The position numbers and the translations under genes are program-made. The notes under the pieces are model-generated. The model searched no databases, had not been told where the DNA came from, and was given only the letters and a program-made list of their open reading frames with translations. A stretch of DNA of 45,589 nucleotides, from assembly GCA_029881435.1 (NCBI GenBank), contig JAOUMR010000017.1:1-45589 (forward strand). Reading direction: 5' to 3'. This document shows, in pieces, positions 5,955 to 37,779 of this stretch. The DNA comes from Nitrospira sp. (GTDB taxonomy: Bacteria; Nitrospirota; Nitrospiria; Nitrospirales; Nitrospiraceae). Within the stretch, counting starts at the first letter, position 1; each line of letters begins with the position of its first letter.

Positions 5955-7063
5955 ACGCTGGTTGGTACTGCGGCGTTGATCTCCCGCTCCCGGAGCATGG
6001 CTTCAGCAGCCTCGATGACCCGATGCACAGACATTCGCTGGAGGCAGTCACTGAGACTGTTCACATGACGATCACATCCTTCTGCAAGGCAAGGTACGCA
6101 ATCTCCTTCGCCTTGAAGCAAAACCACATTCCCCTGCCGCTGCGACCCTTGCTTGTGCCACGGGCTCTGTGCAGTTGAAGGAAATTCCTTCGGCCAAGGC
6201 CCCCACTTCACCGGGTTGGAGGGGCCAAAGAGAACGACGGAGGGCACGCCGACGGCAGCGGCCATATGACTCACCGCTGTATCCGTTCCAACATACAGCG
6301 CAGCGCGACTTAATAGACAGCCAAGAGCCGGCAAGGTTACCCGGCCGATCAAATTGATGGCCTTGGGTAGCCCATGGATAATCTGATCACAATACGATTG
6401 CTCAGCCAATTCGACTCCGGTCACAGCAACAATCAGCCCACGCTCGATCAACCACTGTCCAAGCGCCACCCATCCATCGACAGTCCAGGTTTTGTAGGCA
6501 AACTTTGGCGATACATGCAGCACAGCGTAGGGATGGGCACTTCGTATAGCAGGAAACAGGGTCTGAACAGATCGCTCCTCCTTGTCTGTCCAGCTCACCA
6601 CGGGAGTACCAAGTGGTGTAATGCCCAACGGTGCAAGCAGCTGGAGATTCATGGCCACCGTATGGGTAAAAAGATTGTCAAACGGGACCCAGTGATTCAA
6701 CAACCTCCGCTTCCACCAGGACTTTTTGTCAGGCAACAACGTCCCTACACAATACCGTCCTGCGACCCAGGCATGAAACGTCGGACGATCCCCCGCGAGG
6801 ACCGACACAGCGACATCGTAGCGTCGCCATAGCAAACGCAGCAAGGCGAGATGAGGACGAATCGCCGGACGTTCGGCAATTGTCCAGACTCGATTGATAT
6901 CCGCATTGCCAGAGAGAATATCCTGAGTCCCTTCGAATACGAGTATGTCGATCATCACGTGCGGCAAAGCGGCTTTGAGCGAACGAATGACCGGAGTGGC
7001 TAAAAATACATCTCCAATTCGACGCGTACATACGACTAACACACTGTGGAGATCCCGCTTCAT
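5951..7063 (-). CDS. Glycosyltransferase family 9 (heptosyltransferase-like)
   Basis: The 370-residue product begins with a GT9 N-terminal fold (CTRRIGDVFLATPVIRSL) and has the C-terminal donor-binding signature GTDTAVSHMAAAVGVP followed by LFGPSNP. A cysteine cluster (CVPC, C, C) lies near the C-terminus, as in many heptosyltransferase-like proteins. GT9 enzymes transfer ADP-heptose or related sugars to LPS core acceptors at the inner membrane. Four-base overlaps join it to the genes on both sides. The sugar is unknown. Being in the O-unit cluster rather than beside lpx, it may act on outer core or O-unit. Confidence 0.88.
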   Translation of the reverse strand: MKRDLHSVLVVCTRRIGDVFLATPVIRSLKAALPHVMIDILVFEGTQDILSGNADINRVWTIAERPAIRPHLALLRLLWRRYDVAVSVLAGDRPTFHAWVAGRYCVGTLLPDKKSWWKRRLLNHWVPFDNLFTHTVAMNLQLLAPLGITPLGTPVVSWTDKEERSVQTLFPAIRSAHPYAVLHVSPKFAYKTWTVDGWVALGQWLIERGLIVAVTGVELAEQSYCDQIIHGLPKAINLIGRVTLPALGCLLSRAALYVGTDTAVSHMAAAVGVPSVVLFGPSNPVKWGPWPKEFPSTAQSPWHKQGSQRQGNVVLLQGEGDCVPCLAEGCDRHVNSLSDCLQRMSVHRVIEAAEAMLREREINAAVPTSV

Positions 7064-7917
7064 GTTGTCGTCCGTCGCGGCGTCGCGGATTGATGATCAA
7101 GAAACGCTCCATGGTGTTGCTCGAGTCCAACGGCGGCTCGAACTGCCGAGGAACGGAGGAGATCATCCAGGCGTTTCTGATTGTCGGGCAACCTCATGCG
7201 ATCCTGCTCGGGATGCCATAAATGAAATACCGTCGCAGCGAAGCGTGCATTCTTATGCTTCACGCCGGCATGGAGAAACCGAATAACCAAGTCCGAATCT
7301 TCCAGCCCCCATCCTTCGTAGGATTCGTCCAGCCCATTCACGTGAACCAAGTCGGTTCTCCATGCGGAAAGGTTGCAGGTTTTGATCCCGCTCCAACGAT
7401 TCGGCGACCATTTTCGAAACGGACCATCAGGCAGCCTCATCAGTGGAAGCACGCGATTCACCTCTCGGCGAGACCAGCATCGTGCCCACTCAATCCCACT
7501 CCACGCATGAATTGGAATTCGCTCACGCACGACACGAGCCGTCAACTCGGCTGATAACAATACACGATTTGATCCGAGGAAATACCCAGGTTCGGCCAAT
7601 TGCTTGTGGACCTGTACGAAGTGGCGAGATGGGACACAGTCGCCGTCGGTGAAAATTACGTAGTCGGCACTCGTCGACGCGACGGCACGATTACGGATTG
7701 CCGCGGCTCGAAATCCTCGGTCTTCATGCCAGATATGCTCGACGGAAAACGGGGCGCGTCTAGCAAACTGCCGCACAACGTCTCTCGTCTCCTCCCCTGA
7801 GCCATCATCCGCAACCACCAGCCCGAAATCTTGATCGGTTTGGCCACAATAGCCTTCCAGCACAACCGCCAGGGCATCGGGGCGATTGTAGGTCGTGACG
7901 ATTACCGCTGCTCTCAT
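7060..7917 (-). CDS. GT2 glycosyltransferase with galactosyltransferase-like C-terminus
   Basis: The 285-residue product has an N-terminal GT-A fold (VTTYNRPDAL, ADDGSG), the metal-binding FTDGDCVPS and the later GWGLEDSDL motif. That combination is seen in chondroitin-polymerase-like GT2 enzymes with a Glyco_transf_7C region. It probably adds one sugar to a surface glycan in the cytoplasm. The start overlaps the stop of the preceding GT2 gene by four bases. The donor sugar cannot be inferred safely. Confidence 0.87.
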   Translation of the reverse strand: MRAAVIVTTYNRPDALAVVLEGYCGQTDQDFGLVVADDGSGEETRDVVRQFARRAPFSVEHIWHEDRGFRAAAIRNRAVASTSADYVIFTDGDCVPSRHFVQVHKQLAEPGYFLGSNRVLLSAELTARVVRERIPIHAWSGIEWARCWSRREVNRVLPLMRLPDGPFRKWSPNRWSGIKTCNLSAWRTDLVHVNGLDESYEGWGLEDSDLVIRFLHAGVKHKNARFAATVFHLWHPEQDRMRLPDNQKRLDDLLRSSAVRAAVGLEQHHGAFLDHQSATPRRTTT

Positions 7918-8714
7918 TTCGAAGGTGCGTTGTCAGGCCTTCGGATGGGAGCCTGTTTGGGCAGCGGCCACATTTCCTGCTGCTCGAACCGCTTGGCATA
8001 CCGATAGAACGTGCCTTCGAAATTCCCAAAGGCGATGACAAACCCAGGCCAGCCGTCTAGAAATCCCCGCTTCGCCACATAATGCTTCAGAAACGCCCAA
8101 AAACCGCGAAACAGGGCAGTGCGCATGGACACTCGTTGATCCGCGAGCTTTAACACTCCAAGCGACGAATAGCGATTCGCCTTCTTGACGACTTCTTCAA
8201 AGTCTCTGAATGGGATTTGCCAAATGGCATGCTCCAGACGACCGGCCGGTTTGGCAGTCAAAAGTTCGTATCCTTCGTGGACGGGAGACTCCACATATCT
8301 CATGCTCCCTTTTCGAAACAGTTGCGGCTGACGGAAGTTGGGATACCAGCCGGAATGCTTGATCCAACGCCCCATAAAGTAATTCCGCCTCGGCACAAAA
8401 TAGGCGTCGTGGGCAGGAGTTTCGGCAAGAATCCTGAGAATTTCATCTCGGACTTCCGGCGTGCACTGTTCATCCGTATCGAGACTGAAAATCCATTCAC
8501 GCGTACAGGCCTTAATGGCTTGATTCCGCAGATGGCCAAACCCCTGGAACGGGACCTGGACGACGCGAGCTCCCAAGTCCGTGGCAATCTGAGCCGTTTC
8601 GTCAGTGCTCGCTGAATCGGCCACGATGATTTCGTCCACCCATAACACGCTATTAATGGCATCGGCAATTTTCTTAGCCTCGTTGTAGGCGATGATATAG
8701 GCGGAAAGAGTCAT
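7914..8714 (-). CDS. GT2 glycosyltransferase (WaaE/LgtF-like)
   Basis: The 266-residue product starts with SAYIIAYNEAKKI and carries DSASTDET and SLDTDEQ, the GT2 nucleotide and metal sites in the arrangement typical of the WaaE/LgtF (KdtX) group. Members add glucose to the first heptose of the LPS inner core. Length is normal. It is coupled by ATGA overlaps to the ligase gene before it and the GT2 gene after it. A core-glucosyltransferase role is plausible but rests on family resemblance. Confidence 0.87.
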   Translation of the reverse strand: MTLSAYIIAYNEAKKIADAINSVLWVDEIIVADSASTDETAQIATDLGARVVQVPFQGFGHLRNQAIKACTREWIFSLDTDEQCTPEVRDEILRILAETPAHDAYFVPRRNYFMGRWIKHSGWYPNFRQPQLFRKGSMRYVESPVHEGYELLTAKPAGRLEHAIWQIPFRDFEEVVKKANRYSSLGVLKLADQRVSMRTALFRGFWAFLKHYVAKRGFLDGWPGFVIAFGNFEGTFYRYAKRFEQQEMWPLPKQAPIRRPDNAPSK

Positions 8715-9946
8715 GTCCTTGTATCAAGTTGTGAATCAGTGCCTGAATACAGGAGGCCGGAAAACAAGCAATAAAATAGTTTCTCCGTATGGTCGACGAG
8801 AAATGGGTTAAAGAAACACCCAACCGCTATGGTGACCATCACCCCTCTGGCAAGCAATCTATGCGTCGTCTCGTCGCCGGCAAGAGACGCCCATCGCCAC
8901 TGTTGCACAAACAACCAGAGCAATAAACCGAGTCCAACTACTCCAACTTGCACCATGATATAGAGGTATTGATTGTGGGGATGGGGAGGAACATCGAGAC
9001 CCGCTTGTTCTGTACGCGCCCGATACGCTTGAACAAACCCTCCCGTACCAACACCTATCAATGGGTGGTCCTGAATGATCTCGGCTGTGTGATAGAAATA
9101 TTCCAATCGCCAGCCTATCGGATCCTCCACGACAGCCACCTTGGGACTCCACTGCGTGACACTAGAAGCGGCAAGATTCACCCGTTCATGGAATGTAAAT
9201 GAAATGTTATACGCGATCGAAAATGCTACGGAGAGTGCCACAATCGCTGCGAGTATCCCTCGCCACCCGGCGTACATCTGAAAAGCCAGGACAGCAAGGC
9301 CAGCTAGCACTACATATCCAGTTCGACCTTGCACCATCAATAAAACATTACCTGCGGCCAAGGCCGCGGCAAGTCCCCACCCCCATCCCATCCATCGGCT
9401 TTGCGACTTCCAGGCTAACACACCAAATAGCAACACACCGAATGCCATCAATACGTTATGGGTCGTATGCTTTTTGAACACACATGGGTTAGACAAATCA
9501 CAACCGATAACCCCACCAGGCTGGAGAACGCCCAAGCCCATCACGAGCGACAACGCCAAGGTCACTCCTAACGAAGCCGCCAAGGCGAGGAGCGCGCGAT
9601 TGCGGGTTTGGACGTCAATCGCCATAGAAATCAACAGAGGGATGAGCAAGAGATCGGCATACTTCTTTAACGCATGTAAACGTTCTTCCGGAGCACCCAT
9701 CCCCCACAGCGTTCCCAGCAGCACCCACCCAAAGAGCAAGAGGGCGCTCAGCGCCACCGGATTCGTCGTGACTCGACGAATCCGCTCTCGCCATTCTCCA
9801 CCGGCCAACCAACACACGACAAGCAGGACAACAAGAATACCGTCCGCCACCACCCACATCGGAATCGTGAATCCAAGGGCGGTCGTTGTCCAACCTGCCA
9901 CTCGTCTCGCCTCAAACTGCAGTCTATCGAGCCGCAAGCTCATCAC
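8711..9946 (-). CDS. O-antigen ligase or polymerase (WaaL/Wzy_C family)
   Basis: The 411-residue polytopic membrane protein has roughly ten hydrophobic segments and a large periplasmic loop in the second half. The loop contains LIGVGTGGF and PHPHNQYL, the conserved loop of the Wzy_C/WaaL family. WaaL joins undecaprenyl-linked O-antigen to lipid A-core in the periplasm; Wzy polymerises O-units. The PHPHN motif followed by membrane spans fits either, and this is the only such protein in the window. The surrounding core glycosyltransferases favour ligase. Four-base overlaps link it to both neighbours. Confidence 0.85.
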   Translation of the reverse strand: MMSLRLDRLQFEARRVAGWTTTALGFTIPMWVVADGILVVLLVVCWLAGGEWRERIRRVTTNPVALSALLLFGWVLLGTLWGMGAPEERLHALKKYADLLLIPLLISMAIDVQTRNRALLALAASLGVTLALSLVMGLGVLQPGGVIGCDLSNPCVFKKHTTHNVLMAFGVLLFGVLAWKSQSRWMGWGWGLAAALAAGNVLLMVQGRTGYVVLAGLAVLAFQMYAGWRGILAAIVALSVAFSIAYNISFTFHERVNLAASSVTQWSPKVAVVEDPIGWRLEYFYHTAEIIQDHPLIGVGTGGFVQAYRARTEQAGLDVPPHPHNQYLYIMVQVGVVGLGLLLWLFVQQWRWASLAGDETTHRLLARGVMVTIAVGCFFNPFLVDHTEKLFYCLFSGLLYSGTDSQLDTRT

Positions 9947-10629
9947 TTATAGGCAAAGGCGATCAGGGATTTACGAAACGAAGGAATCAGGTCTTTGATT
10001 GCCGTACCTATAGACCTCATCCTTTCAATCCCCTCGCGGTAGCGCCGGGACTTCAGGAAGGAAACTTCGTACTTTTGGAACCCCGAAGACTGCAGTAGCA
10101 ATTCCAGGTCGCCTTTGGTGAACTCGCGATTGTGACGAAGGGGATAATACGACATACCTTTGTACGAGATCGGAGTCGCATGAAGATAATGCTCCGCATA
10201 GTCATAGGTGATGTGCTTTCCCCGTAACAGACGAACCCGGTTACGGAAACTGGCAACATTCGGCACATCGATCTCCAACACTCCGCCGGGCCGCAATACT
10301 CGCCTCATCTCTCGAACCGACGGAAGAGGTGAATGTGAAAAGTGTTCGAGCACCTGGCAACAAACCACGGCGTCGAATGACTCGTTAGGATAGGGAATCG
10401 CATCGGCTTCCACGTTGCACACCTGAAAGACAATCCCCTTCCCATACATGTCCGGATAAGCAGCAGCCTGATCTTTGACATCGAGGGCATGACATTCGTG
10501 ACCAAGTTCTGACAGAAATGAGAGCAGCAGACCTTGTCCGGCACCCACATCAAGCACCCGCTTAGCCGCACTGAGCCGGACGGCGATCTGACAGAATCGA
10601 TCGACGCTCCCCTTGAACAAATCCTCCAT
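9943..10629 (-). CDS. Class I SAM-dependent methyltransferase
   Basis: The 228-residue product has motif I VLDVGAGQGLL near residue 25-35, an acidic strand-2 end (ALDV) and FDAVVCCQVLEHF, all typical of Methyltransf_11/23 enzymes. It probably methylates a sugar or lipid intermediate of the glycan pathway. It is the first gene of a run of six joined by four-base overlaps (10629 down to 4056). A 108-base gap separates it from the WecA-like gene upstream, and I see no clear promoter in it. The substrate is unknown. Confidence 0.85.
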   Translation of the reverse strand: MEDLFKGSVDRFCQIAVRLSAAKRVLDVGAGQGLLLSFLSELGHECHALDVKDQAAAYPDMYGKGIVFQVCNVEADAIPYPNESFDAVVCCQVLEHFSHSPLPSVREMRRVLRPGGVLEIDVPNVASFRNRVRLLRGKHITYDYAEHYLHATPISYKGMSYYPLRHNREFTKGDLELLLQSSGFQKYEVSFLKSRRYREGIERMRSIGTAIKDLIPSFRKSLIAFAYK

Positions 10630-10737
10630 TCAGGGTTGCCTCGACGAAAAAGGCGGCCTTCATTTCGCAACCGGACGGCGAACTGCAAGACATCTTTGCT
10701 ATTCGTCGATTGGCCCACGGCAAGATTGGATTTCAAA

Positions 10738-11898
10738 CTATGTCTTGACGACGACGCGTGGAGGGTCTTGAACTGGCACCACCGGCACTTCAGCCTTCCT
10801 GCCTGATGTAATAGGATCTCGAAGAGAGCGAGAGACCTTTCCATTCCGTTCCAACTTGCCCACCACCCTCCCGAGAAGGAAAAACAGGCACACCCATGCA
10901 CCAAGAATAATGAGTCGTACGTTGTCCGTCGAGTGATGATACAGAACGGCCAGTCCTCCGCACAGAATCATGATTCCATACTCTGCAAGCACGGTCCGAC
11001 GATGGCTCCATCCGTTCAAGACCAACCGCTGATAATAATGCTCTCGGTGAGCTTCCCAGATTTTTTTGCGACGGAGCGCCCGTCGGGTCAAGGTCACTGT
11101 CGCATCCACAATGAATGGGGAAAAGATCATGATCGGGACCCATATCTCGAATATTCCGTCGCGAACTCCAAGGAGCATCAATGTCCCCGCCAAGAATCCG
11201 ACCGTGATGCTCCCAGCATCGCCCATGAAGATACGAGCCGGCGGGAAATTATGCACGAGAAATCCCAGAGCGCCCATCGCGACAAATACGGCGATGATGT
11301 ACATGACAGGAAAATGCGCCTGCCAGCCGAAATACGCCAGAAATCCAAATCCAAAGAACGTCATCCCTCCGGCAAATCCATCCATACCGTCCATAAAGTT
11401 GTAGAGGTTCGCCATCCACAGGAGGACGAGGACGCTCACCGGAATTGCGGCTATCCCGAGCAGGATGTTCGGTCCGCCGGGTATTGGGATAGAAGACAAG
11501 GTCAAGCCGACGCCCCAAATAATGATACAAGCGGAGACGCCCTGGACACCCAATCGGAGGGCGACGGGGAGACCGACACAGTCATCGATGAAGGACACGA
11601 CAAAGATGAGGAGCATGGACGCCACGATCCAGAAACTCCCTGACGCCAAACCTTTCGGCAACACAGCTTTCGATGGTTGTGTAATCGCCAAAATACTGGC
11701 AACCAGAATGAGACTGATCACCACACTGCCGATGACGGCTAACCCTCCGGTCTGGGGAGTCGGACTGGCATGCAATGTTCGTTCGTTGGGGTGAGCGAGT
11801 ATTGACAGAAACGACTTGGGCGAACACAAACTCCTTGTCATCCACCAAGCCGACACAAAGGCCACAACCGCCGGCAATATGACCATCAGGATGTTCAT
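10738..11898 (-). CDS. Undecaprenyl-phosphate sugar-1-phosphate transferase (WbpL/WecA family)
   Basis: The 386-residue protein has about eleven membrane spans and the MraY/WecA motifs in order: PTPQTGG (46-52), the Asp pair SFIDD (102-106), NLYNFMDGMDG (164-174) and IFMGDAGS (223-230). The HR-type cytoplasmic loop follows. Such enzymes start O-unit synthesis by moving a HexNAc-1-phosphate from UDP to undecaprenyl phosphate. It lies nine bases after a WbpV-like epimerase/reductase gene. That pairing, with a WbpM-like dehydratase in the same locus, points to QuiNAc or FucNAc as donor sugar (inference). Confidence 0.92.
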   Translation of the reverse strand: MNILMVILPAVVAFVSAWWMTRSLCSPKSFLSILAHPNERTLHASPTPQTGGLAVIGSVVISLILVASILAITQPSKAVLPKGLASGSFWIVASMLLIFVVSFIDDCVGLPVALRLGVQGVSACIIIWGVGLTLSSIPIPGGPNILLGIAAIPVSVLVLLWMANLYNFMDGMDGFAGGMTFFGFGFLAYFGWQAHFPVMYIIAVFVAMGALGFLVHNFPPARIFMGDAGSITVGFLAGTLMLLGVRDGIFEIWVPIMIFSPFIVDATVTLTRRALRRKKIWEAHREHYYQRLVLNGWSHRRTVLAEYGIMILCGGLAVLYHHSTDNVRLIILGAWVCLFFLLGRVVGKLERNGKVSRSLRDPITSGRKAEVPVVPVQDPPRVVVKT

Positions 11899-11907
11899 CG
11901 TATGGTG

Positions 11908-12936
11908 CTATCGAGTCGGAGTGTGTCCTGTTACCAACTCTCTTGCCGTCCCGGCGCCACTAACTCGTCGGTAGAACGCAATGAGCTCAGGAACTGTTTC
12001 CCGAAAAGAATGTACCGCCTGGTAGCCCAATTCCCGAGTGATGGCAGCGGAACTAAACCAGGCGCAACCGACGAGCTTTGTCAGATGTTCGGTCGTCAAG
12101 AGAGCAGGCCCGCCCCCGATGATTTGCAGCCAGTCACCACATCGGGCGCCCGCTTTGAGGACCCAGAGCGGCACTCGCCATTGCGGAGGTGGATTTCCTA
12201 GCCCAACTCGCAACCAGTCATAGAGGTCGGTCACAGAAGAGGGTTCTGCGTCGGTAACAATGTACGCCGGTCGTTTAAAACAGGTCGCCTGAAGACACAA
12301 CACCACCGCCTGTCCGAAATTCTCGACATGCAAGAGGCTTCTGAACCACGGCACACGAGGCAAGGCAGGAAACCGCCCGTGATCGATCGCCTCAATCATG
12401 CGATACAGGTTGCCATTTTGTGTCTGCCCATACACCATGGGAAGACGGAGCGAGACGGCGGTGAGGCCATGTCGTCCTGCATATTCCGAGACCAGTTGTT
12501 CTGCCTGCCACTTGGATCGACCGTACGCAGTCTGTGGATCTGGGGTCTGTGTTTCATCGACGCATCCACTCGTCTCTTCGCCAAAAACCTTCACTGTACT
12601 CGCGAACACAATTCGACTTACGCCCGATCCGACGGCAGCATCCAAGATGTGCCTTGTGCCTTCGACATTGATGGTTTGATAGTCCTGATCTGAACCAGAA
12701 TCATCGGCCGCATGAACCTTAGCGGCGAGGTGGACTATGGCTTCACAGCCAACCATCGCACCCTTGACCTTCTGCTCATCACGAATATCGCCGATTACCA
12801 TGTCAACTTCGGGCAAAAATAATGGAGATCGGTTCGCACTGTGCACCATCGCTCGCACATGGAATCCGGACCTGCATAGCTGTCCGATAAGAGCCGATCC
12901 CAAGAAACCTGCCGCCCCTGTCACCAGCACACGCAT
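11908..12936 (-). CDS. NAD-dependent epimerase/reductase (WbpV-like)
   Basis: The 342-residue extended short-chain dehydrogenase has GAAGFLGS near the N-terminus, a HLAAKVH segment, ASTVKVFG and the catalytic YGRSK. I chose the ATG at 12936; a TTG at 12942 would add two residues. Proteins of this type beside WbpL-like transferases reduce UDP-4-keto-6-deoxy-GlcNAc to UDP-QuiNAc or UDP-FucNAc. A UDP-glucose 4-epimerase role is the main alternative. The stop is nine bases before the WbpL-like start, so they are probably co-translated. Confidence 0.87.
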   Translation of the reverse strand: MRVLVTGAAGFLGSALIGQLCRSGFHVRAMVHSANRSPLFLPEVDMVIGDIRDEQKVKGAMVGCEAIVHLAAKVHAADDSGSDQDYQTINVEGTRHILDAAVGSGVSRIVFASTVKVFGEETSGCVDETQTPDPQTAYGRSKWQAEQLVSEYAGRHGLTAVSLRLPMVYGQTQNGNLYRMIEAIDHGRFPALPRVPWFRSLLHVENFGQAVVLCLQATCFKRPAYIVTDAEPSSVTDLYDWLRVGLGNPPPQWRVPLWVLKAGARCGDWLQIIGGGPALLTTEHLTKLVGCAWFSSAAITRELGYQAVHSFRETVPELIAFYRRVSGAGTARELVTGHTPTR

Positions 12937-12992
12937 GTTCAAGAGATCAACCTATCATCGATGGAGTCCGGGACAATGCTCTTCTCGCTCCG

Positions 12993-14141
12993 TTAACGAG
13001 CTTGGGTGGTTCCGTAGAGCAGCTCACGATACAGCCCCAGCGTTTGCGAGATCACGGCTGCTGCGGAAAACTCTTTGACCACAATTTCCCGCCCACTGCG
13101 ACCCAACTCAACCCTCAATCCTTCATTTTCCAGCAACATCGTGACCGCATCGGCTAAAGCGCTTGCATTCCTGGGCTGGACAAGAAGCCCATTGACACGA
13201 TGGCGGACAACTTCACGACAACCAGGAACATCACTGGCAACTATGGGCTTGCCGCAGGCAGCTGCCTCCAACAGACTCACTGGAAGCCCTTCACGATAGG
13301 ACGGCAAGACGACGACGGCAGCCCTACTGAACACCATCGGCATATCATCTCGATGTCCCCACCACTCGACGACGCCTTCCTCCTGCCATCGCTGCAACTG
13401 CATTAACCCAATACTCGCCGGGTTATCATCGTCGCAGCGTCCGACCAACACGAAACGCGCGCTTAGGTTCAGCTGACGCACCAGTCTAGCCGCTTCGACG
13501 AATTCGCCTACCCCCTTATCCCACAACATTCGGCAGGCTAAGAGAACGATCGACTCTTGAGCCTTATCATGAGTAGGTTGGAATTTGTCGATATCAACTC
13601 CCGTCCCGGGAATCACCCTCGCTCGGATTTCCTCCACGATACGGTCATGCGTTAACTGAGCGCGATCCTCTTCGTTTTGAAAAACAGCAACAGATCCCTC
13701 TCGTGCGAACGCCGCTCTCAGCCCGACTCTTAAAAACAGCCGCAGCAATCTTGCATTGATGCTATTGCTTGTGTAGGCGTAGCCCAACCCTGCGAACACA
13801 TTAATCACGTGTCGAATACCCGTTAGACGCGCAGCAATTGAACCGTAAAAGATCGGCTTAACTGCGATGTGATAGACGATGTCTGGTTTTTCGGAGCGGT
13901 AAAGCCGGACCAATTCCCATACGGCAAGGAGCTCCCGAATCGGATTCAGGCTCCGACGGAGGAGACTGATGGGAAACAGTTTAAAGCCTTGCTGGCTGAT
14001 TTGCTGTCCATGTTCCTGAATACGCGTCGCGAGCAGCACCTCAAAGCCCGCATCCCGCGTCGCACGTGCCAAATCGAGCCAATGCAACCAGAAATACCAG
14101 TCCTCGGTGACGAGGAAAAGTATGCGCGGAGAAGATTTCAT
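12993..14141 (-). CDS. GT4 family glycosyltransferase
   Basis: The 382-residue product has a GT-B fold: an N-terminal acceptor domain beginning ILFLVTEDWYFWLH, a central strand VPGTGVDIDKF, and a C-terminal donor domain with VLPSYREGLPVSLLEAAACG. The last motif is the EX7E signature of GT4 retaining enzymes. It is cytoplasmic or membrane-peripheral and adds one sugar to the O-unit. It is similar in layout to WbpJ/Cap1J-like enzymes encoded beside WbpV/WbpL pairs. The donor is unknown. A 126-base gap without a recognisable gene precedes it. Confidence 0.9.
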   Translation of the reverse strand: MKSSPRILFLVTEDWYFWLHWLDLARATRDAGFEVLLATRIQEHGQQISQQGFKLFPISLLRRSLNPIRELLAVWELVRLYRSEKPDIVYHIAVKPIFYGSIAARLTGIRHVINVFAGLGYAYTSNSINARLLRLFLRVGLRAAFAREGSVAVFQNEEDRAQLTHDRIVEEIRARVIPGTGVDIDKFQPTHDKAQESIVLLACRMLWDKGVGEFVEAARLVRQLNLSARFVLVGRCDDDNPASIGLMQLQRWQEEGVVEWWGHRDDMPMVFSRAAVVVLPSYREGLPVSLLEAAACGKPIVASDVPGCREVVRHRVNGLLVQPRNASALADAVTMLLENEGLRVELGRSGREIVVKEFSAAAVISQTLGLYRELLYGTTQAR

Positions 14142-14267
14142 AATGTCCGGCCTTTATAGCGAATCACTCAGGTCATTCCGGAAAGAACACGTAGACGAGC
14201 AGGCTCCATGGCCCTGGAGATACAGATATGCCGCACATACCTACCTGTACCAAGCAACCTCACCAGG

Positions 14268-15155
14268 TCATGCCTGAGTGAGAACAGACCGTTCCACTGC
14301 GAGCCGGTTCCATATGGATTGCCACTGTTCTCTCTCTGCCTCACCGGCAAAGCTCCAGGACCTGCGAGATCCGCTCCCAACTCTGCGACCCAACTGGAGG
14401 ACCACATCTCTTGCGAGAGCGGCACCATGCACACCGAGACCCATCAGCGCCCAACTCAACGAGGGAAGGTCATTGACTCTCGCAAGAAGCCGACGACAAT
14501 AATTGAGTCGGCCTCGCCCCAATTTTCTGGCTGAAATTTCGTTCATACGATAGCCCAACAGCACCTCCTCTAGCGCCGCAAAGCGGCTGTGTGAAAAGCT
14601 CTGAAGCAGGACCACTTGATCTTCGCAACGTGTATCTACTTCTGAGTAGGGATGGGACAGAAACCACGTTCGCGTACCCATCCATGTCGGGTGGGCAAGT
14701 GGAAATCCCCACCATGGTCGCTGGCAAATGGCTTCGTGCGTACATGCCGTTGGGTAACAGCCAACTACCTCCCCCGCTCCCTTAAATATCACAGCACCGG
14801 TTCCCAACAGATCAATGTCAGGGTGCTCCTGAAGAAACCGGACTTGCCGTTCGAGACGCTGAGGATATGCCACATCGTCCGCATCCATTCTGGCGACATA
14901 ATGCCCCCTTGCGAGACGCATACATTGATTCAACCGGAATGGCAAACCCATATTCCCCAATGGTTCTTGAATGAGCCGAATACGGGAATCTTGAATATGT
15001 GAGAGGATCTCTCGGGTTCGGTCAGTCGAACCATCATCAGCCACGAGCAGCTCCCAGTTCTGATACGTTTGGGCAAGAACCGACCGCAACGCCAGTCCGA
15101 CTGTTGCAGACACGTTGCAGGCCGACATCACCACGGTGACAAGAGGCTGTTCCAT
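14268..15155 (-). CDS. GT2 family glycosyltransferase
   Basis: The 295-residue product opens with VTVVMSACNVSATVG and has ADDGSTDRT and the metal site ARMDADD, with normal GT2 spacing. It lacks strong membrane spans. It likely adds a sugar to the lipid-linked O-unit on the cytoplasmic face. The next gene upstream ends 27 bases away, so they are presumably in one operon. The donor cannot be assigned. The 14142-14267 gap downstream shows no gene of its own. Confidence 0.88.
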   Translation of the reverse strand: MEQPLVTVVMSACNVSATVGLALRSVLAQTYQNWELLVADDGSTDRTREILSHIQDSRIRLIQEPLGNMGLPFRLNQCMRLARGHYVARMDADDVAYPQRLERQVRFLQEHPDIDLLGTGAVIFKGAGEVVGCYPTACTHEAICQRPWWGFPLAHPTWMGTRTWFLSHPYSEVDTRCEDQVVLLQSFSHSRFAALEEVLLGYRMNEISARKLGRGRLNYCRRLLARVNDLPSLSWALMGLGVHGAALARDVVLQLGRRVGSGSRRSWSFAGEAEREQWQSIWNRLAVERSVLTQA

Positions 15156-15182
15156 ACCCCCACAGCGCCTTTCCGGATGCTT

Positions 15183-16034
15183 TTAGGTTTTGGTCCAGTG
15201 TTTCGGTTGACCCAGTATTTGCCTGCCTAGGTCAAGCGCCCTGCGAGCGACCCGTTCGCCGAACACACGCCATACCACAAACCTTGCATATACCTTGATG
15301 AGAGATTGCAGCCAAAGCAGGGAAGGATATTTCTGCCCATGCATTCGTTGAGCCCGCCTGGACTCAGTCAGGACATCTAGGGCAGCATGTGGATTGCTGC
15401 TGATGCCACCTTGTCGAACACCAGCAATGATAAGATTTGGAATAAACAGCGCATCGGCCTGTTTCAGTTCCCGCAGCAACATTTCATAATCCCCTGCGAT
15501 GCGAAACGATTCATCGAACGTGCCGTGCTGCTCAAACAAACTCCGATGATGCATCATACCGGGGTGGGGAAGACACATGCTTGTCTGGAATTTCCCTTTC
15601 ACTGTTTGCCACGATGCTCCCATTGAATAGAGGTTTTCCCCTCGATCGTTAACCAACATGTTCTGCCCGTATACGACCCGAATGCTGGGTGACAGAGCTT
15701 TCAATCGCTCACTCATCCTCGTTAGCACGTGGTCATCCCAGAAAAAGTCATCCGCTCCGAGGAAGCAAATCCAATCCCCATGTACCATACGCAAAGCTTT
15801 ATTCCACGCGCTATAGATTCCTCGGTCAGGTTGAGAAATCCAATAGCTGATCACCTGGTTATTGGCTCCCAACAACTCGACCGTACCGTCTTTTGAACCT
15901 CCATCAATGATAATTAGCTCTTTACGCGGATAGGTTTGCTGCGCGACGCTATCAATGCACTGCTGTAACGTGGCCTTACTGTTGTAAGTCGCAATGATGA
16001 TCGATATCAAAGGAGAAGCAACGCGTGCACACAT
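15183..16034 (-). CDS. GT2 family glycosyltransferase (WcaA-like)
   Basis: The product of about 283 residues has ISIIIATYNSKATLQ, IDGGSKDGT, QPDRGIYSAWNKAL and FLGADDFF, the pattern of the WcaA/WcaE-like GT2 group found in colanic-acid and O-antigen loci. I prefer the ATG at 16034. A TTG at 16043 overlaps the stop of the small upstream frame as TTGA and would add three residues. Role: transfer of one sugar to the growing O-unit. Donor unknown. Confidence 0.88.
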   Translation of the reverse strand: MCARVASPLISIIIATYNSKATLQQCIDSVAQQTYPRKELIIIDGGSKDGTVELLGANNQVISYWISQPDRGIYSAWNKALRMVHGDWICFLGADDFFWDDHVLTRMSERLKALSPSIRVVYGQNMLVNDRGENLYSMGASWQTVKGKFQTSMCLPHPGMMHHRSLFEQHGTFDESFRIAGDYEMLLRELKQADALFIPNLIIAGVRQGGISSNPHAALDVLTESRRAQRMHGQKYPSLLWLQSLIKVYARFVVWRVFGERVARRALDLGRQILGQPKHWTKT

Positions 16035-16039
16035 GTCGT

Positions 16040-16276
16040 TCAATTGACCTGACCTGACATAGAAGCTACAAAGGTGGCAGAAGCACCAGTGGTAGCCAGC
16101 TGCAATTCTGGTGCGATGTTTCGATGCGACTCCACATCCGTTATGTCCGAGGAGGTAGCTCTATCGTGATGAGCCTTGCATCTTTCTATCTTCCCAATTA
16201 GAAGTTCCCAAATCCTGCCCACAGTCTGACGTTCACGATAGATTTGAATGCGCCAACCGCGAGTGATCATCAGCAT
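16040..16276 (-). CDS. Small hypothetical protein, 78 residues
   Basis: I do not recognise this product. The ATG at 16276 overlaps the stop of the kinase-methyltransferase gene by seven bases, and its stop touches the next GT2 start. It fills an otherwise empty 235-base gap exactly. The first 35 residues are basic and could form a helix (ending LLIGKIERCK). The rest is polar, with no membrane span or metal motif. It could be a real coupled gene or a leftover reading frame. Confidence 0.35.
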   Translation of the reverse strand: MLMITRGWRIQIYRERQTVGRIWELLIGKIERCKAHHDRATSSDITDVESHRNIAPELQLATTGASATFVASMSGQVN

Positions 16277-17601
16277 AGTTGGACTCCAACCCGCTTATGT
16301 GAAGCATAAAACATTTGTCGGTTACGCTCAGTGGTTCCTAGCGGAACGATGTGCGTGAATCCGGCCCTTCGCAAGTTGCCTTCGGCCTCTTGCTCGGATT
16401 CGTGCCCCTCATAGATCACCTCTTTATGCCTCGAGATAAAGGACCAGACGCGTTCCTTATCCTCAATCCAGTGCAATACGGAAAGAGCGGAAACAATGTC
16501 AAACCCGTTCAGTTCTTCCTCCCAACGAAACGAATCTCCCAGATCTACTGGTCGATGTTCCACATCCGTCCCGAACGCACGCGATGCAAGGTTTGCTGCC
16601 AGAAGGACATCTTTGTCTATGTCTATGCCTAGACAGAATGCCGCGCCCGATAATTTGGCATGTATTGATAGCAGTCCCATGTTACAGCCAAGCTCCAACA
16701 GTCGCTTGCCCTTGAAATCTACGTTCTTTCGAATACGTTCCCATCTCAGAATCCAGGGTCGCTCACCAGGGAAATTGATTCCACCAATATCGATAGAGTA
16801 GTAGGCAATGGTCGCATCTGGTGCAGACGCCTTGGAGAGTGACGCAATACTCCAAGCTTCGGCCAGTGTCTCCAAGGCAGGATCCGCCTGAAGCATTGCG
16901 CGCTGCATAAAAGGGGACTTTGCAAGGTGAACACCTTGGGTATATGATGGGCCGGTTCTTGACAGAAACATGATGAGCTCCCTGGCTAGTCTTGCCAGAG
17001 CGCGAAGCAAGAATCCGATACCTCTCACATACCGCAACCGATTGAAAAGAGAAAACTCACATCTTCTCTCGCAGGTACCAAGCCCCAAGATGTCCCGCAC
17101 AACACAACGCCATGGAGAAGCCAAGCAAGCCTGATCAAAGTCGAAGACGCTTATCCCTCCCTCTCTATTTCTCCCCACATTGCGCCAATGGAGATCACCG
17201 TGTGAGCATCCGAGTCGGTTAATTTGTATCACCACATGAACGATGTCCCAGAAATCTTTGAACGTTTCACGGGGATTTCCGAATGTTGGATCATAGCCAT
17301 CTAATTCTGGCATCAACTCCATTTCCAGCTGCTCCCACTCTCCCACGCGCTTGTAACTTCGAACTGCCGGAACGCCTGGTACTGACGACAGTTGCTGCAT
17401 GATCAGATATTCATCTTCGAACGAGTTGTTTCTTCCTCTTATCGAAGAAGGGGTAAACCGACGGACCTTCACTATCGAGTCGTTTGCTCTATATACTCGG
17501 CAATCCGAGCTGAATTTACTGACACTTACAAGAACGGCGTTTTCCCCAAGACTGTTCCGGACGAATCGGTCCCACGCTTCTTGTTCCTGTAAATATCTCA
17601 T
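16270..17601 (-). CDS. Kinase-methyltransferase fusion protein
   Basis: The 443-residue product has two parts. Residues 1-215 form a small-molecule-kinase-like domain: a candidate ATP lysine K45, an acidic residue near 64-65, the catalytic loop SHGDLHWRN (133-141) and the metal-binding DFD (154-156), as in RIO/WaaP/aminoglycoside-kinase-type folds. Residues 265-435 form a class I SAM methyltransferase with LLELGCNMGL (301-310) and GIDID (325-329). The same two activities occur in WbdD, which caps certain O-antigen chains with phosphate and methyl, but there the methyltransferase comes first. It is three bases from the GT2 gene upstream. Capping or decoration of the glycan is inference. Confidence 0.8.
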   Translation of the reverse strand: MRYLQEQEAWDRFVRNSLGENAVLVSVSKFSSDCRVYRANDSIVKVRRFTPSSIRGRNNSFEDEYLIMQQLSSVPGVPAVRSYKRVGEWEQLEMELMPELDGYDPTFGNPRETFKDFWDIVHVVIQINRLGCSHGDLHWRNVGRNREGGISVFDFDQACLASPWRCVVRDILGLGTCERRCEFSLFNRLRYVRGIGFLLRALARLARELIMFLSRTGPSYTQGVHLAKSPFMQRAMLQADPALETLAEAWSIASLSKASAPDATIAYYSIDIGGINFPGERPWILRWERIRKNVDFKGKRLLELGCNMGLLSIHAKLSGAAFCLGIDIDKDVLLAANLASRAFGTDVEHRPVDLGDSFRWEEELNGFDIVSALSVLHWIEDKERVWSFISRHKEVIYEGHESEQEAEGNLRRAGFTHIVPLGTTERNRQMFYASHKRVGVQLC

Positions 17602-17604
17602 ACG

Positions 17605-18387
17605 CTAAATCGCCAATCTTCGCAGATAGATGCTCTGGTATATGAAAAACCGGATTAGGTTCAAAACCCGACTCATCGGATGTCGGGAAGAACAATGCAT
17701 GGTGAAAATTTTTCGCAGTGTTTTGATATGTTCCTTAGGGGGAGCCTTGGATAGTCCGACCGGATTATTCCTGTATGCAGTTCCGACTACCCCTGAGTAG
17801 TGCCAAGTACATCGCTGACTCAGCCGGATTTTAAGCTCCCAGTCCTCGTAGAGCCGCAAAGAGGGATCGAATCCCCCTGCTGCAAGATAGTCTGCCCTTG
17901 CAACAAGGTAATCCCTCGGTATAAAACCGCTCAGGTGCCTGATATAGAAGGAGAGGTCACCTTCTCGTATTCGCTTGCGCGATGACATCAGAGATAGTGG
18001 TTCTCCGATCGCGTCCACACACATTACATCCGAGAACGCAATCCGCCTTTCCCCTGAACTGGCAGCGAGCACTCTTGCCTCCGCGGCAAGCTTCTGCGGA
18101 GCACGGTAAAAATCATCAGCGTCTAGTGTAGTGATGTATTCGCTCATGCTTTGCTGGATTGCCTTGTGACGGCTGGCAGCAACGCCAAGCGATCCCTCAT
18201 TGAATATCGGTATGATCCGCCTGCTTTGTGCATATTCTTGAATAATTTCACAAGAGTGGTCGGTGGATGCGTCATCTATCACTACAACCTCCGAAGGTTG
18301 CAGCGTTTGAGAGAGGACACTATCCAGGCACTGGCGCAAAAAACGCGCATTGTTATGATTTGCAATAATTACGGCAATTGAAAGCAT
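17605..18387 (-). CDS. GT2 family glycosyltransferase
   Basis: The 260-residue product has AVIIANHNNARFL, IDDASTDHS and the metal site TLDADDFY, a compact single-domain GT2 enzyme. It likely adds a sugar to the O-unit. It ends three bases before the kinase-methyltransferase gene, suggesting coupling. The 108-base gap before its start (18388-18495) is AT-rich, but I found no -35/-10 pair with good spacing. Donor unknown. Confidence 0.87.
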   Translation of the reverse strand: MLSIAVIIANHNNARFLRQCLDSVLSQTLQPSEVVVIDDASTDHSCEIIQEYAQSRRIIPIFNEGSLGVAASRHKAIQQSMSEYITTLDADDFYRAPQKLAAEARVLAASSGERRIAFSDVMCVDAIGEPLSLMSSRKRIREGDLSFYIRHLSGFIPRDYLVARADYLAAGGFDPSLRLYEDWELKIRLSQRCTWHYSGVVGTAYRNNPVGLSKAPPKEHIKTLRKIFTMHCSSRHPMSRVLNLIRFFIYQSIYLRRLAI

Positions 18388-18495
18388 TGTCGGGCTTGGC
18401 GAATCATAAATCTGGACCGCATTTATATTTTATCCCTCACCCGGTTGTACTTACGCATGCACGCTCACGTAATCAAACAGCCGGCGCAAGCACCG

Positions 18496-19299
18496 CTAAC
18501 GGCCATCCCCCTCGCGCAAGATCGCAACAATGTTCTGAAAGGCAAACAATTCACACCGAACTGGACTGTAGCGGTCAATTCTTTGTAGCCCCCCTGAGAG
18601 CATACGGTAAAACTGATATTGCGGAAGCACCTCCATGAAATCTTTAAAAAATACTCTCGATACGACGTTCATTTCATTGAACTCGAACTGAATGGCTCTG
18701 AAGATCCCTGCTCGGATAGCCTTGACACCACCCTTCAAAACATTGAGCTCATATCCTTCCGTGTCAATTTTTAACAGGTCGACTCGTGCGAGTCGCTGCT
18801 CCTCGATGAACTCGTCTAATGTAATGACATTGACTTCATACTCCGATGACGGAGCCTTGTGAATATCTTCTATGACTTCTCGAAAAATTGAAGCATGCGC
18901 AGTCCCGGATTCGGAACGGTGGTCGTAAAGTATCTGACGACCTGGCCTATCCCCGACTGCGTAATTAAAAGGACGGATGTTCTTATGAGCCTCTATATTG
19001 GAGACTAACCGGTCAAACGTCAGTGGATGCGGCTCAAAAGCGTAAACCGTTACTGAAGGGTTGATCGCAACGATATCTCTTGAATAGCCACCGTCATTTG
19101 CTCCAACATCAAGAACAACTGGGTTGTCCTTATCTTTAAGACACTGACGGAGAAACATTAACTCTCCGCTAATTTTTCGATTTTGATGGTTTAGAATGCC
19201 TAGCCCGCGCAATCCGAGGTCGAAAAGCAGGATATTCAATTTTCGAAACCGAGGGCGGGCAAAAAGAGAACCATACACCCTAAGTAGAATACTGTACAC
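18496..19299 (-). CDS. FkbM family methyltransferase
   Basis: The 267-residue product contains VLDVGANDGGYS (motif I), YAFEPHP and LLKIDTEGYELNVLKG, which together define the FkbM family of SAM-dependent O-methyltransferases. Members methylate hydroxyl groups of sugars or polyketides. It starts at a GTG inside the end of the flippase gene (20-base overlap), so it is translationally linked. It probably methylates a sugar of the surface glycan. It is the second of three methyltransferase domains in this locus. Confidence 0.9.
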   Translation of the reverse strand: MYSILLRVYGSLFARPRFRKLNILLFDLGLRGLGILNHQNRKISGELMFLRQCLKDKDNPVVLDVGANDGGYSRDIVAINPSVTVYAFEPHPLTFDRLVSNIEAHKNIRPFNYAVGDRPGRQILYDHRSESGTAHASIFREVIEDIHKAPSSEYEVNVITLDEFIEEQRLARVDLLKIDTEGYELNVLKGGVKAIRAGIFRAIQFEFNEMNVVSRVFFKDFMEVLPQYQFYRMLSGGLQRIDRYSPVRCELFAFQNIVAILREGDGR

Positions 19300-20644
19300 G
19301 GAATACCCTCGTTAGCAAGCAAGCTCTCAGCTTCATCCAGAACATTAACCGCGTCTCCTTTTGGACTACATCAATGAACAGAGCAGCCACTGCTTGGGAA
19401 ACTAGTGTCGCCACCGCTGCACCAACCCCGCCATGCTGTGGGATCCATAAGACATTCAGAGCGATGTTGATCCCCATCCCCCAAAACACTCGATAGAATG
19501 CAAGCAACTGGCGATTCTCTGCGAGAAACCATTTCCCACTTGCAACTCCAAGAAACACGAACAACGCGGTCCATATATGAATGGAAAGAATTGTTCCCGC
19601 CTCAAGATATTCCTGCCCAAAAAGCACTACCACTATCTGATCAGCGAGAAACGTCACCGGGATCGCAACCACGAGTGCAATCATGACAAGGATGTCGTAG
19701 AGCTTTTGGAATTTCTCGAGGTAAAGGGCTTCGCTCGTCTTCTTCGCGTCGAGTAGCGCTGGAAACACTGAACCCGCAATTGCCATAGGAATGAAATACC
19801 ATGCTTCACTGATACGAACAGCAGCTGCGTAGATACCAACGACCTTGTCATTGAGCATTTGCCCCAACATAATCTGATCGATACGCATATAAACCATGAC
19901 CGCAAGCCCGGAAAGGATGAGTGGCCAACTATGCTTCAACAGGGTTTTGGCTCGAGTGATGCTGAATCGCCATACCCGTATCCTCCCTCCGTCCCATTCG
20001 TACATAGCGAAAAGTAAAATCGCTGTGATCAAACCTTCGACAAACGTGATCCACGCAAACGCAAGAAGGGAAGCACCGACCAGTATTAATCCAATCTTTA
20101 TCACCCCAATCGCCATAAACACGGAATTCTCTGCCCATACCGTGTACTTGGACTGCACCTGCGATTCGAACCAGTATTTTATGCTTTCACTGCCTTTCAA
20201 GAGCAATGTGAGACCAATTATGGTGACCACACCAAATACGGATCGATCGTGGGGGCGGAAAACGGAAATGAGAATTAGGAGTGCAGAAAACGCTGTTATT
20301 CCACCTGCGATCTGAAGTGCGAAAGCACTGCCTAGAGTCTCAAAACTGCTTTTTGGGTCACTGACAATATCCCGAACGACAATGCCGGGAAGACCGAGCG
20401 TGGAGAGCGCGCCGAAAATCGAAACAAAGGCGACCGCAAAACTGAACAGCCCGAAGTCCTCCGGACCCAGATATCTGGCTACCCATACACTGACGATTAG
20501 CCCCACGCCCATGCGCAAAAGTTTATCACTGAAGAGCCATGCCGCATTATTAAGAATCTTCAGCAAATTTGGTCGGTGTTCGATCTTCGTGCGAAGCGAT
20601 ACGGGCAAATGACGCAGCCAGAACGGATTTGGCAGAGAATTCAC
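19280..20644 (-). CDS. wzx: Wzx-type oligosaccharide flippase
   Basis: The 454-residue protein has about twelve hydrophobic spans and the Polysacc_synt/MATE-like N-terminal pattern: NAAWLFSDKLLRMGVGL, then SVWVARYLGPEDFGLFSFA. This family moves undecaprenyl-diphosphate-linked O-units across the inner membrane. The frame starts with GTG after a purine-rich stretch. It is the first structural gene after the NusG-like gene, separated by a 194-base stretch. Its presence implies a Wzx route; no Wzm/Wzt ABC exporter is in the window. Confidence 0.9.
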   Translation of the reverse strand: MNSLPNPFWLRHLPVSLRTKIEHRPNLLKILNNAAWLFSDKLLRMGVGLIVSVWVARYLGPEDFGLFSFAVAFVSIFGALSTLGLPGIVVRDIVSDPKSSFETLGSAFALQIAGGITAFSALLILISVFRPHDRSVFGVVTIIGLTLLLKGSESIKYWFESQVQSKYTVWAENSVFMAIGVIKIGLILVGASLLAFAWITFVEGLITAILLFAMYEWDGGRIRVWRFSITRAKTLLKHSWPLILSGLAVMVYMRIDQIMLGQMLNDKVVGIYAAAVRISEAWYFIPMAIAGSVFPALLDAKKTSEALYLEKFQKLYDILVMIALVVAIPVTFLADQIVVVLFGQEYLEAGTILSIHIWTALFVFLGVASGKWFLAENRQLLAFYRVFWGMGINIALNVLWIPQHGGVGAAVATLVSQAVAALFIDVVQKETRLMFWMKLRACLLTRVFRVQYST

Positions 20645-20838: not shown

Positions 20839-21375
20839 TCACACTGCCACCACATCGTTCACGTCGATTTCAACGCCCGCCGCCTGTTGAATCAGCCGAA
20901 CGCCGATCACTAACCGATGCCTTTTCTCTTTCCGGAGGAGAATTCCCTGAACCCCTTGCAAGGGGCCACGCACCACTTCCACGTGCATGCCTTCATGAAG
21001 GTACGGATGAGGATCATACGGCAGAACACTGGTCATGAGGCGGCGCAACACGTCGATCTCTTGTTCCGGAATCGGTTCGGGTCGGCTTGCGCTCCCGACG
21101 ATTCCTACGACACCCGTGACTTTCTGCACCGGCGTCTTTTCCTGCTGAGAAAATCGAACGAAACAATACCCAGAAAACAGCGGCACCTCGATTTCCTTCT
21201 TTCGATCCTTCCATTGGCTTAATCGCTTCACGGTCGGCAGCAATGGTTGAATGCCTTGCTTGTTGAGCTGATCCCTCACCAGTTTTTCATGGCGGGACTT
21301 CGTGCGTAGGGCGTACCAGTGAAGACCGGTCGTGTGGTTAGTCTCATTCTTCTGGTAGACACTGTTTTCGAACAC
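20839..21375 (-). CDS. NusG paralogue, RfaH/UpxY-like antiterminator
   Basis: The 178-residue product has an NGN domain (LHWYALRTKSRHEKLV near residues 18-33, PLFSGYCFVRF) and a C-terminal KOW domain (HEGMHVEVVRGPLQGVQG). This is the layout of specialised NusG paralogues that help RNA polymerase read long polysaccharide operons. The start is a GTG with a good ribosome site (GAGAGGG, 7 bases away). It sits second in the locus, just behind a regulator and before wzx. I found no ops/JUMPstart element like that of E. coli RfaH, so its recruitment signal is unknown. Confidence 0.9.
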   Translation of the reverse strand: MFENSVYQKNETNHTTGLHWYALRTKSRHEKLVRDQLNKQGIQPLLPTVKRLSQWKDRKKEIEVPLFSGYCFVRFSQQEKTPVQKVTGVVGIVGSASRPEPIPEQEIDVLRRLMTSVLPYDPHPYLHEGMHVEVVRGPLQGVQGILLRKEKRHRLVIGVRLIQQAAGVEIDVNDVVAV

Positions 21376-21428
21376 AGCTTCGCCCTCTCACTTACAGGGA
21401 ACAAAAAGCACCGCTGTCTTTCACGCAC

Positions 21429-22016
21429 TTAGACCGACGGACCTAGCACAAGCACTTTCGCATCAGGAACATGCTGGCGCCCCAGCTCTTCTCGGTGCCG
21501 TGTGGTCTGTTCGATATCCGCCAACAGCACCGCATCGAACTCCCACCCGGCTAAGACCTCTGGTCGCCACACCGGATAGGATAAAAACGACTCTTGCTGA
21601 CCGTCGTCAACGAACCCGACTAACGTCAAGTGCATTTCGCGAAGAGAGAGATACGCCAGCTCTGCGAACTCACCGGTTCCATAAATCACCACTCGTTTCA
21701 TCCCGCTTTGTGTTGCCAAAGAAAGCGTTTCCCGAAGCCGCGCCCGCATGTCTCGGTAGTGGGATAGGGAGTACTGCATGTAGAGATACGTGAGCCGAGA
21801 TTTTTCGGCAAGCCCTTGCGGCGTCAGTAAATATCGAACCCGTTGTGAAGGGATTGTGGTGATTTTGATGTATCCTTTACGGGCAAGTCGCTTGAGGTAG
21901 AGATTGGTCAGACCTAGCGCAACTCCGAGTTTTGTCGCGAGAGATCGCTGAGTGACAGCCCCATCTCGCTCAACCTCGGTGAGTAAAAGAAGGTCGCGTT
22001 GGCCTCGAAGATTCAT
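21429..22016 (-). CDS. Winged-helix regulator with Rossmann-like C-terminus
   Basis: From the ATG at 22016 the product is 195 residues. Residues 1-75 form a MarR-like winged helix (TQRSLATKLGVALGLTNLYL, then a wing with RVRYLLTPQG) like the EPS-associated MarR-type regulators. Residues 107-195 look like a dinucleotide- or sugar-nucleotide-binding fold: VVIYGTGEFAELAYLSL (109-125) and GFVDD (134-138), as in the first domain of WbpM/CapD-type or PglD proteins. The frame extends upstream to 22298, but that part lies inside the GT9 gene. AAGAGGGG lies about 14 bases before the chosen ATG. It heads the O-antigen operon and probably regulates it. Confidence 0.82.
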   Translation of the reverse strand: MNLRGQRDLLLLTEVERDGAVTQRSLATKLGVALGLTNLYLKRLARKGYIKITTIPSQRVRYLLTPQGLAEKSRLTYLYMQYSLSHYRDMRARLRETLSLATQSGMKRVVIYGTGEFAELAYLSLREMHLTLVGFVDDGQQESFLSYPVWRPEVLAGWEFDAVLLADIEQTTRHREELGRQHVPDAKVLVLGPSV

Positions 22017-22040
22017 ACAGTTATGAGCATCCCCTCTTAC

Positions 22041-22055
22041 GTTCATAATATGAAC
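22041..22055. promoter_or_regulatory. Palindromic operator candidate
   Basis: GTTCAT-AAT-ATGAAC is a perfect inverted repeat with six-base arms and a three-base centre. It covers the predicted -10 of the regulator's own promoter, 25 bases before the ATG. This is the expected position for an autorepressor site of the winged-helix protein encoded next. Binding itself is inference. Confidence 0.55.
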
Positions 22056-22076
22056 ATACAAAGGAAACGGAGTCAA
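22047..22076 (-). promoter_or_regulatory. Predicted promoter of the O-antigen operon
   Basis: On the minus strand, TTGACT (22071-22076) is followed after 18 bases by CATATT (22047-22052). The -35 is strong and the -10 moderate. Transcription would begin near 22040, giving a leader of about 24 nucleotides with the GAGGGG ribosome site. It lies in the 107-base gap between the GT9 gene and the regulator. Confidence 0.55.
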
Positions 22077-37170: not shown

Positions 37171-37190
37171 GGCCTCTCCTCCCACCGCTC

Positions 37191-37763: not shown

Positions 37764-37779
37764 CACGTCAATACTCCGA

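Follow-up and report, generated by a model that had tools for sequence, protein, structure and literature searches.

A predicted autorepressor with MarR-like and Rossmann-like domains and a probable ops-like element at the head of a presumed O-antigen operon in Nitrospira

The 45,589-nucleotide contig JAOUMR010000017.1 of a Nitrospira sp. (assembly GCA_029881435.1), referred to below as the window, encodes on its minus strand a 195-amino-acid regulator (21429..22016) that, as suggested by the conservation of a palindrome before related genes in several phyla, very probably shuts off its own promoter through this palindrome (22041..22055). The next gene on the same strand encodes an UpxY family transcription antiterminator (20839..21375), and if a conserved element at the junction of the two genes (21373..21389, minus strand) is a variant of the ops element of RfaH, the locus probably has two gates, one at the initiation and the other at the elongation of transcription. 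UpxY and its probable recruitment site are additions to the initial annotation of this region.

The mechanical open reading frame of the regulator extends to 22298, but orthologues align from the ATG at 22016, the start adopted here. An alternative ATG at 22046, inside the palindrome, was discarded because most close orthologues read CTGAAC at this position. The N-terminal domain (residues 3-64; 21825..22010) passes the gathering cut-off of Pfam HTH_24 (35.9 bits versus 21.9, E 5.5e-9) and is a MarR-like winged helix that matches MarR protein structures with Z scores of 11-13. It is followed by a long helix (residues 66-103; 21708..21821; pLDDT about 90), through which the protein probably dimerizes, and by a Rossmann-like domain (residues 108-190; 21447..21695), modeled separately with a pLDDT of 88 (the full-length model has a pLDDT of 90). 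These matches bear out the winged helix proposed in the initial annotation, and the two motifs highlighted there, GTGEFAE and GFVDD, are both present, as residues 113-119 and 134-138, respectively.

The palindrome GTTCATAATATGAAC is exact, with two 7-bp arms flanking one base, and includes the form GTTCA-N5-TGAAC. On the minus strand, a -35 box, TTGACT (22071..22076), is separated by an 18-nt spacer from a probable -10 box, CATATT (22047..22052), that lies within the palindrome. By consensus alone, this -10 box is weak, and the consensus promoter scan is no better than shuffles (1 promoter found versus 1.7 expected); in most relatives, TTGAC is located at a set distance before the operator. 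Taken alone, the palindrome is weak evidence as well: seven perfect palindromes of this form are found in the window versus 1-6 in ten shuffles, which is near chance, although only about 0.007 would be expected within the single 107-bp intergenic region. It is the conservation of this site that decides.

The exact GTTCA-N5-TGAAC form precedes 87 of the 98 full-length relatives (from -170 to +40 of the start; mostly one relative per species, with closely related Nitrospira species included in the counts), compared with 0.05 in shuffles, and other spacers between GTTCA and TGAAC (0-4 and 6-12) are completely missing from the 98 upstream regions. The ten outer bases are constant and the five inner ones variable. 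The site is kept in relatives of about 45% identity from other phyla and recurs in Desulfobacterota, Nitrospinota and Chelatococcus; on two Chelatococcus plasmids, fused relatives with the 15-bp operator form are encoded directly before gmd, and the -35 TTGAC is flanked by two operator copies. Two operators before one gene, often abutting, are found in 12 loci (L100, L110, L111, L116, L120, L121, L124, L125, L126, L132, L152 and L153). In three loci (L052, L118, L129), the operator is one base off, and a diverged paralogue group in some Nitrospiraceae (L134-L136), with a GAAETGE loop, has an altered palindrome around TTCACTGTATGAA. Four loci of one clade (L112, L113, L119, L122) have no operator, and none is recognizable in L054.

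The genome (3.72 Mb) contains four further exact copies of GTTCA-N5-TGAAC, all of them inside genes; no intergenic copy indicative of a regulon was found elsewhere in the genome, a distribution best read as autorepression confined to one promoter. The palindrome might instead belong to another regulator, with the present gene merely sitting behind it, but this is very improbable given that the motif accompanies this gene family through several phyla and differing genomic settings, and that there is no other intergenic copy. On these comparative grounds, the palindrome is very probably the regulator's own operator. The initial annotation had described a perfect palindrome over the -10, interpreted it as the protein's own operator in a feedback loop, and named its absence before orthologues as the observation that would speak against this idea; the description is accurate, and the interpretation agrees with the presence of the site in 87 of 98 cases across phyla, its position and the lack of a second intergenic copy.

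The position of the operator bears on the direction of control. In most Nitrospira, the -35 TTGAC is 14-15 nt before the operator, which places the palindrome over the -10; in other lineages, the distance is mostly 20-23 nt, so that the -10 edge and the start site are covered. In either position, a bound protein would exclude RNA polymerase. In 26 loci (L094-L132 and others), the start ATG of the regulator falls in the center of the second operator half-site, so that the transcript would be nearly leaderless. The poor -10 boxes of Nitrospira (CATATT/CATATC) are compatible with an activator, in which case a dimer would assist the polymerase, but exclusion fits an operator that covers the -10 or the start site in every lineage and the start codon in 26 loci, and MarR-type autoregulators with sites of this kind usually act as repressors. 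Repression is very likely the mode of action, and activation appears quite improbable.

The same operator is found before genes of stand-alone MarR_EPS proteins (TIGR04176), which lack the Rossmann-like domain, namely 8 of 15 such genes in Nitrospirota and most of those in Desulfobacterota that score above the TIGR04176 cut-off. In alphaproteobacterial plasmids, five of the six MarR_EPS genes examined (L191, L193-L196) have a one-base-shorter, 14-bp form, GTTCA-N4-TGAAC. The operator thus predates the domain fusion or, at the least, is not restricted to the fused proteins.

The genes upstream of the regulator form a lipid A and core block (LpxK, GT9 heptosyltransferases) that is conserved in close relatives, whereas the genes beyond UpxY differ, so that the regulator and UpxY are located at the border of fixed and variable polysaccharide genes. 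UpxY, a paralogue of RfaH and NusG, passes the membership cut-off of NCBIfam NF033644 (120.7 bits versus 100); of 119 long-type loci (from overlapping samples), 74 have a gene of this family downstream in the same orientation, versus none of 31 short-type loci. The genes that follow on the minus strand (5951..20644) encode a Wzx-like flippase, FkbM and other methyltransferases, GT2/GT4 glycosyltransferases, an epimerase, a WecA-like transferase, a Wzy_C O-antigen ligase and a GT9 protein. Gene order and the presence of the antiterminator suggest that these genes are co-transcribed and that the regulator controls the whole O-antigen operon; a further promoter could lie in the 195 nt that separate UpxY from the flippase gene. 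Two other features of the minus strand of the window are recorded here: a gene that apparently joins a heptosyltransferase II-like domain to a GmhB-like heptose bisphosphate phosphatase domain (25430-27166), and two neighboring OmpH/Skp-like genes (36628-37185 and 37191-37964) directly behind bamA.

Word counts around UpxY genes yield the consensus GAGAGGGCG(A/G)AGC(T/A)GTG, represented in the window by GAGAGGGCGAAGCTGTG (21373..21389), the sole exact copy in the genome. The word GGGCGRAGC is present in 60 of 70 regulator-UpxY loci versus 1.6 in shuffles, and three of the ten loci without it have a one-base variant. In Nitrospira, the element is mostly located 40-100 nt past the stop codon of the regulator, and in other lineages it follows UpxY by 60-180 nt. 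The last GTG of GAGAGGGCGAAGCTGTG overlaps the annotated UpxY start, and in Nitrospira the conservation of the element could partly come from translation initiation; this cannot explain its conservation in the other lineages, where it sits behind UpxY. Many Nitrospira (e.g., L006, 6729-7136; L009, 6681-7121; L007, L021, L041, L049) have a gene inserted between the element and upxY that encodes a four-helix-bundle protein beginning with MKLTRFEDLDCWKEA, presumably similar to 23S rRNA intervening-sequence proteins; the insert, which adjoins simple-repeat-like sequence, is absent from the window.

Five loci (L117, L124, L174, L176, L184) have the canonical RfaH ops, GGCGGTAG, instead, 57-94 nt after UpxY, and in three loci with no UpxY behind (L120, L125, L132), GGCGGTAG is found 55-158 nt after the regulator. 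The window locus contains GGGCGAAGC rather than the canonical core and so does not qualify as an RfaH-type ops; a search of the window for canonical ops returns 38 matches at two mismatches and none better, the same as chance. The UpxY proteins differ along with the element. Those accompanied by the variant have an SRHE motif in 58 of 59 cases and a KDRKK-like motif in 59 of 59, and neither motif occurs in the five with canonical ops. Such a joint change of protein type and element type is what a recognition pair would be expected to show, although it may in part reflect descent because the five canonical-ops proteins come from few lineages. From these comparisons, the GGGCGRAGC element is probably a variant ops, and its recruitment of UpxY is quite likely. 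GCGNAGC sequences form unusually stable DNA minihairpins; ViennaRNA with DNA parameters predicts no hairpin for the GRA form of the element. Among stand-alone MarR_EPS genes, 8 of 26 carry canonical GGCGGTAG in the leader, versus 0.05 in shuffles, and all six alphaproteobacterial plasmid MarR_EPS genes examined have TGCGGTAGC, the ops core, which follows the 14-bp operator in L191 and L193-L196. Thus, in the stand-alone and the fused branch alike, the same operator is combined with an ops-type element.

The Rossmann-like domain raises the question of a ligand. Among the structure matches listed, the domain aligns with the uncharacterized protein 2g6t (Z 12.9, rmsd 1.9, 88 aligned residues), the Rex repressor 3wg9 (Z 11.0, rmsd 2.6, 90 aligned), WbaP (8t53; Z 10.8, rmsd 3.0, 88 aligned), 3nkl (Z 10.6, rmsd 2.9, 88 aligned, 27% identity) and PerB (4eaa; Z 10.1, rmsd 3.3, 88 aligned), and succinyl-CoA synthetase alpha chains score equally well. 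In Pfam, only PglD_N (PF17836) comes near, below its gathering cut-off of 23.4 (18.6 bits for the whole protein, 20.6 bits for the domain alone), and CoA_binding_3, a domain presumably associated with WbpM/CapD dehydratases, gives no match in a search with this domain. The likeness to glycan enzymes suggested in the initial annotation is therefore upheld at the level of the fold and fails as a guide to specificity: because Rex, succinyl-CoA synthetase and 2g6t score as well or better, it singles out no ligand.

In an alignment of 71 relatives, E119 is invariant, G113 is present in 70 and D161 in 68, a pattern that resembles a kept site and makes one likely. The second glycine of the GxG loop, G115, is found in 48 of the 71, and D137, the first aspartate after strand 2, in 49; with these two features gone in about a third of the sequences, a classical NAD(H) site is not general across the family, and in part of it the Rossmann-like domain is possibly only structural. 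This observation is compatible with a ligand-free autorepressor, in which the domain would be a dimerization or protein-protein module (contacting, e.g., UpxY or a biosynthetic enzyme) and the circuit would merely hold the operon at a fixed level. That stand-alone MarR_EPS proteins carry the same operator also fits this possibility, given that the Rossmann-like domain is evidently not needed for operator recognition. The fold, however, is of a nucleotide-binding type whose best matches are Rex and nucleotide-sugar enzymes, and the invariant E119 and near-invariant G113 look like a kept site; a ligand-free regulator is accordingly judged rather unlikely. Control by a small molecule of some kind seems somewhat the better prospect; that this molecule is a nucleotide-sugar is only a tentative suggestion, and NAD(H) is an improbable candidate.

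The explanation we consider probable as a whole is a ligand-modulated local repressor coupled to UpxY loading. A dimer of the regulator would bind GTTCA-N5-TGAAC at 22041-22055 via its MarR-like winged helices and block RNA polymerase at the sole clear promoter of the regulator-UpxY-O-antigen unit, limiting both the level of the regulator itself and how much polymerase enters the operon. The Rossmann-like domain, connected by the long helix, would most likely release or strengthen DNA binding in response to a bound nucleotide-type molecule (a nucleotide-sugar or, as in Rex, NAD(H)). A polymerase that escapes would transcribe the regulator gene, meet the ops-like element (21389-21373) and load UpxY, which would carry it through the long operon. 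These predictions assign a precise DNA site to an uncharacterized family of regulators that stand first in polysaccharide operons of several phyla, among them the nitrifying genus Nitrospira. Should the Rossmann-like half detect a precursor, the product or precursor would directly control surface-sugar output at the initiation step, and antitermination would act as a further control in series.

Several known systems resemble the locus in part. With MarR_EPS (TIGR04176), it shares a homologous winged helix and the start of the next helix (residues 9-96, E 6e-17), the operator half-sites and the position at the head of polysaccharide operons; it differs in that its score of 61.6 bits is under the curated cut-off of 88, and the stand-alone family has about 105 positions and genes that often are followed by canonical ops rather than by their own upxY. 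We found no paper on TIGR04176, on the operator or on the ops-like element in the open-access (PMC) literature, leaving room for a subscription paper; an EPS-associated MarR gene is mentioned once, in a transcriptome under salt stress and without a mechanism (PMC10599003).

The order of domains, with a winged helix at the N-terminus and a Rossmann domain behind it, is that of Rex (3wg9, 1xcb, 3ikt), whose chains rank with the best structural matches (Z 9-11 for the C-terminal domain; 3wg9 is the best full-length match among those listed, Foldseek E 2.2e-4). Such similarity would suit a redox switch in which NADH/NAD+ sets DNA binding and couples surface polysaccharide output to the energy state. 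Unlike Rex, however, the regulator has a MarR-like helix and a long connecting helix, its domains are placed otherwise relative to each other (rmsd 13.6 for the full-length superposition), the Rex Pfam domains CoA_binding and Put_DNA-bind_N are not matched at E values up to 1, several clades have a degenerate GxG loop, and the operator is, we assume, different from a Rex-type site; a redox switch is hence an improbable reading. The protein is neither a MarR_EPS by the curated cut-off nor a Rex by Pfam, and it probably works as a repressor of this general build. The similarity to PglD_N proteins (PerB, VioB), to 3nkl from Vibrio fischeri (titled UDP-D-quinovosamine 4-dehydrogenase) and to WbaP (8t53) lies in the fold and in a weak resemblance of sequence (18-28% over the part that can be aligned); these are enzymes or enzyme domains.

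As in RfaH/ops and Bacteroides UpxY systems, the gene for a NusG paralogue lies within or close to its polysaccharide operon, and an ops or ops-like element is present in the transcribed DNA (PMC7593976, PMC5995543). In the RfaH-ops structure, C3:G8 closes the loop G4-A7, and a pocket of RfaH accommodates the flipped-out T6 (PMC5995543); GGGCG(A/G)AGC allows the same stem, with a loop one base shorter, as if without T6. It is conceivable, albeit speculative, that the locus exemplifies a widespread two-gate circuit that combines a nucleotide-sugar-responsive Rex-like repressor, an operator shared with MarR_EPS across phyla, and a NusG paralogue recruited by a new short-loop ops (GC-GRA-GC versus GC-GGTA-GC), with a joint change of protein and element. 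The ops-like element would show how an RfaH/ops pair diverges, with the base flipped by RfaH missing and the partner protein changed too.
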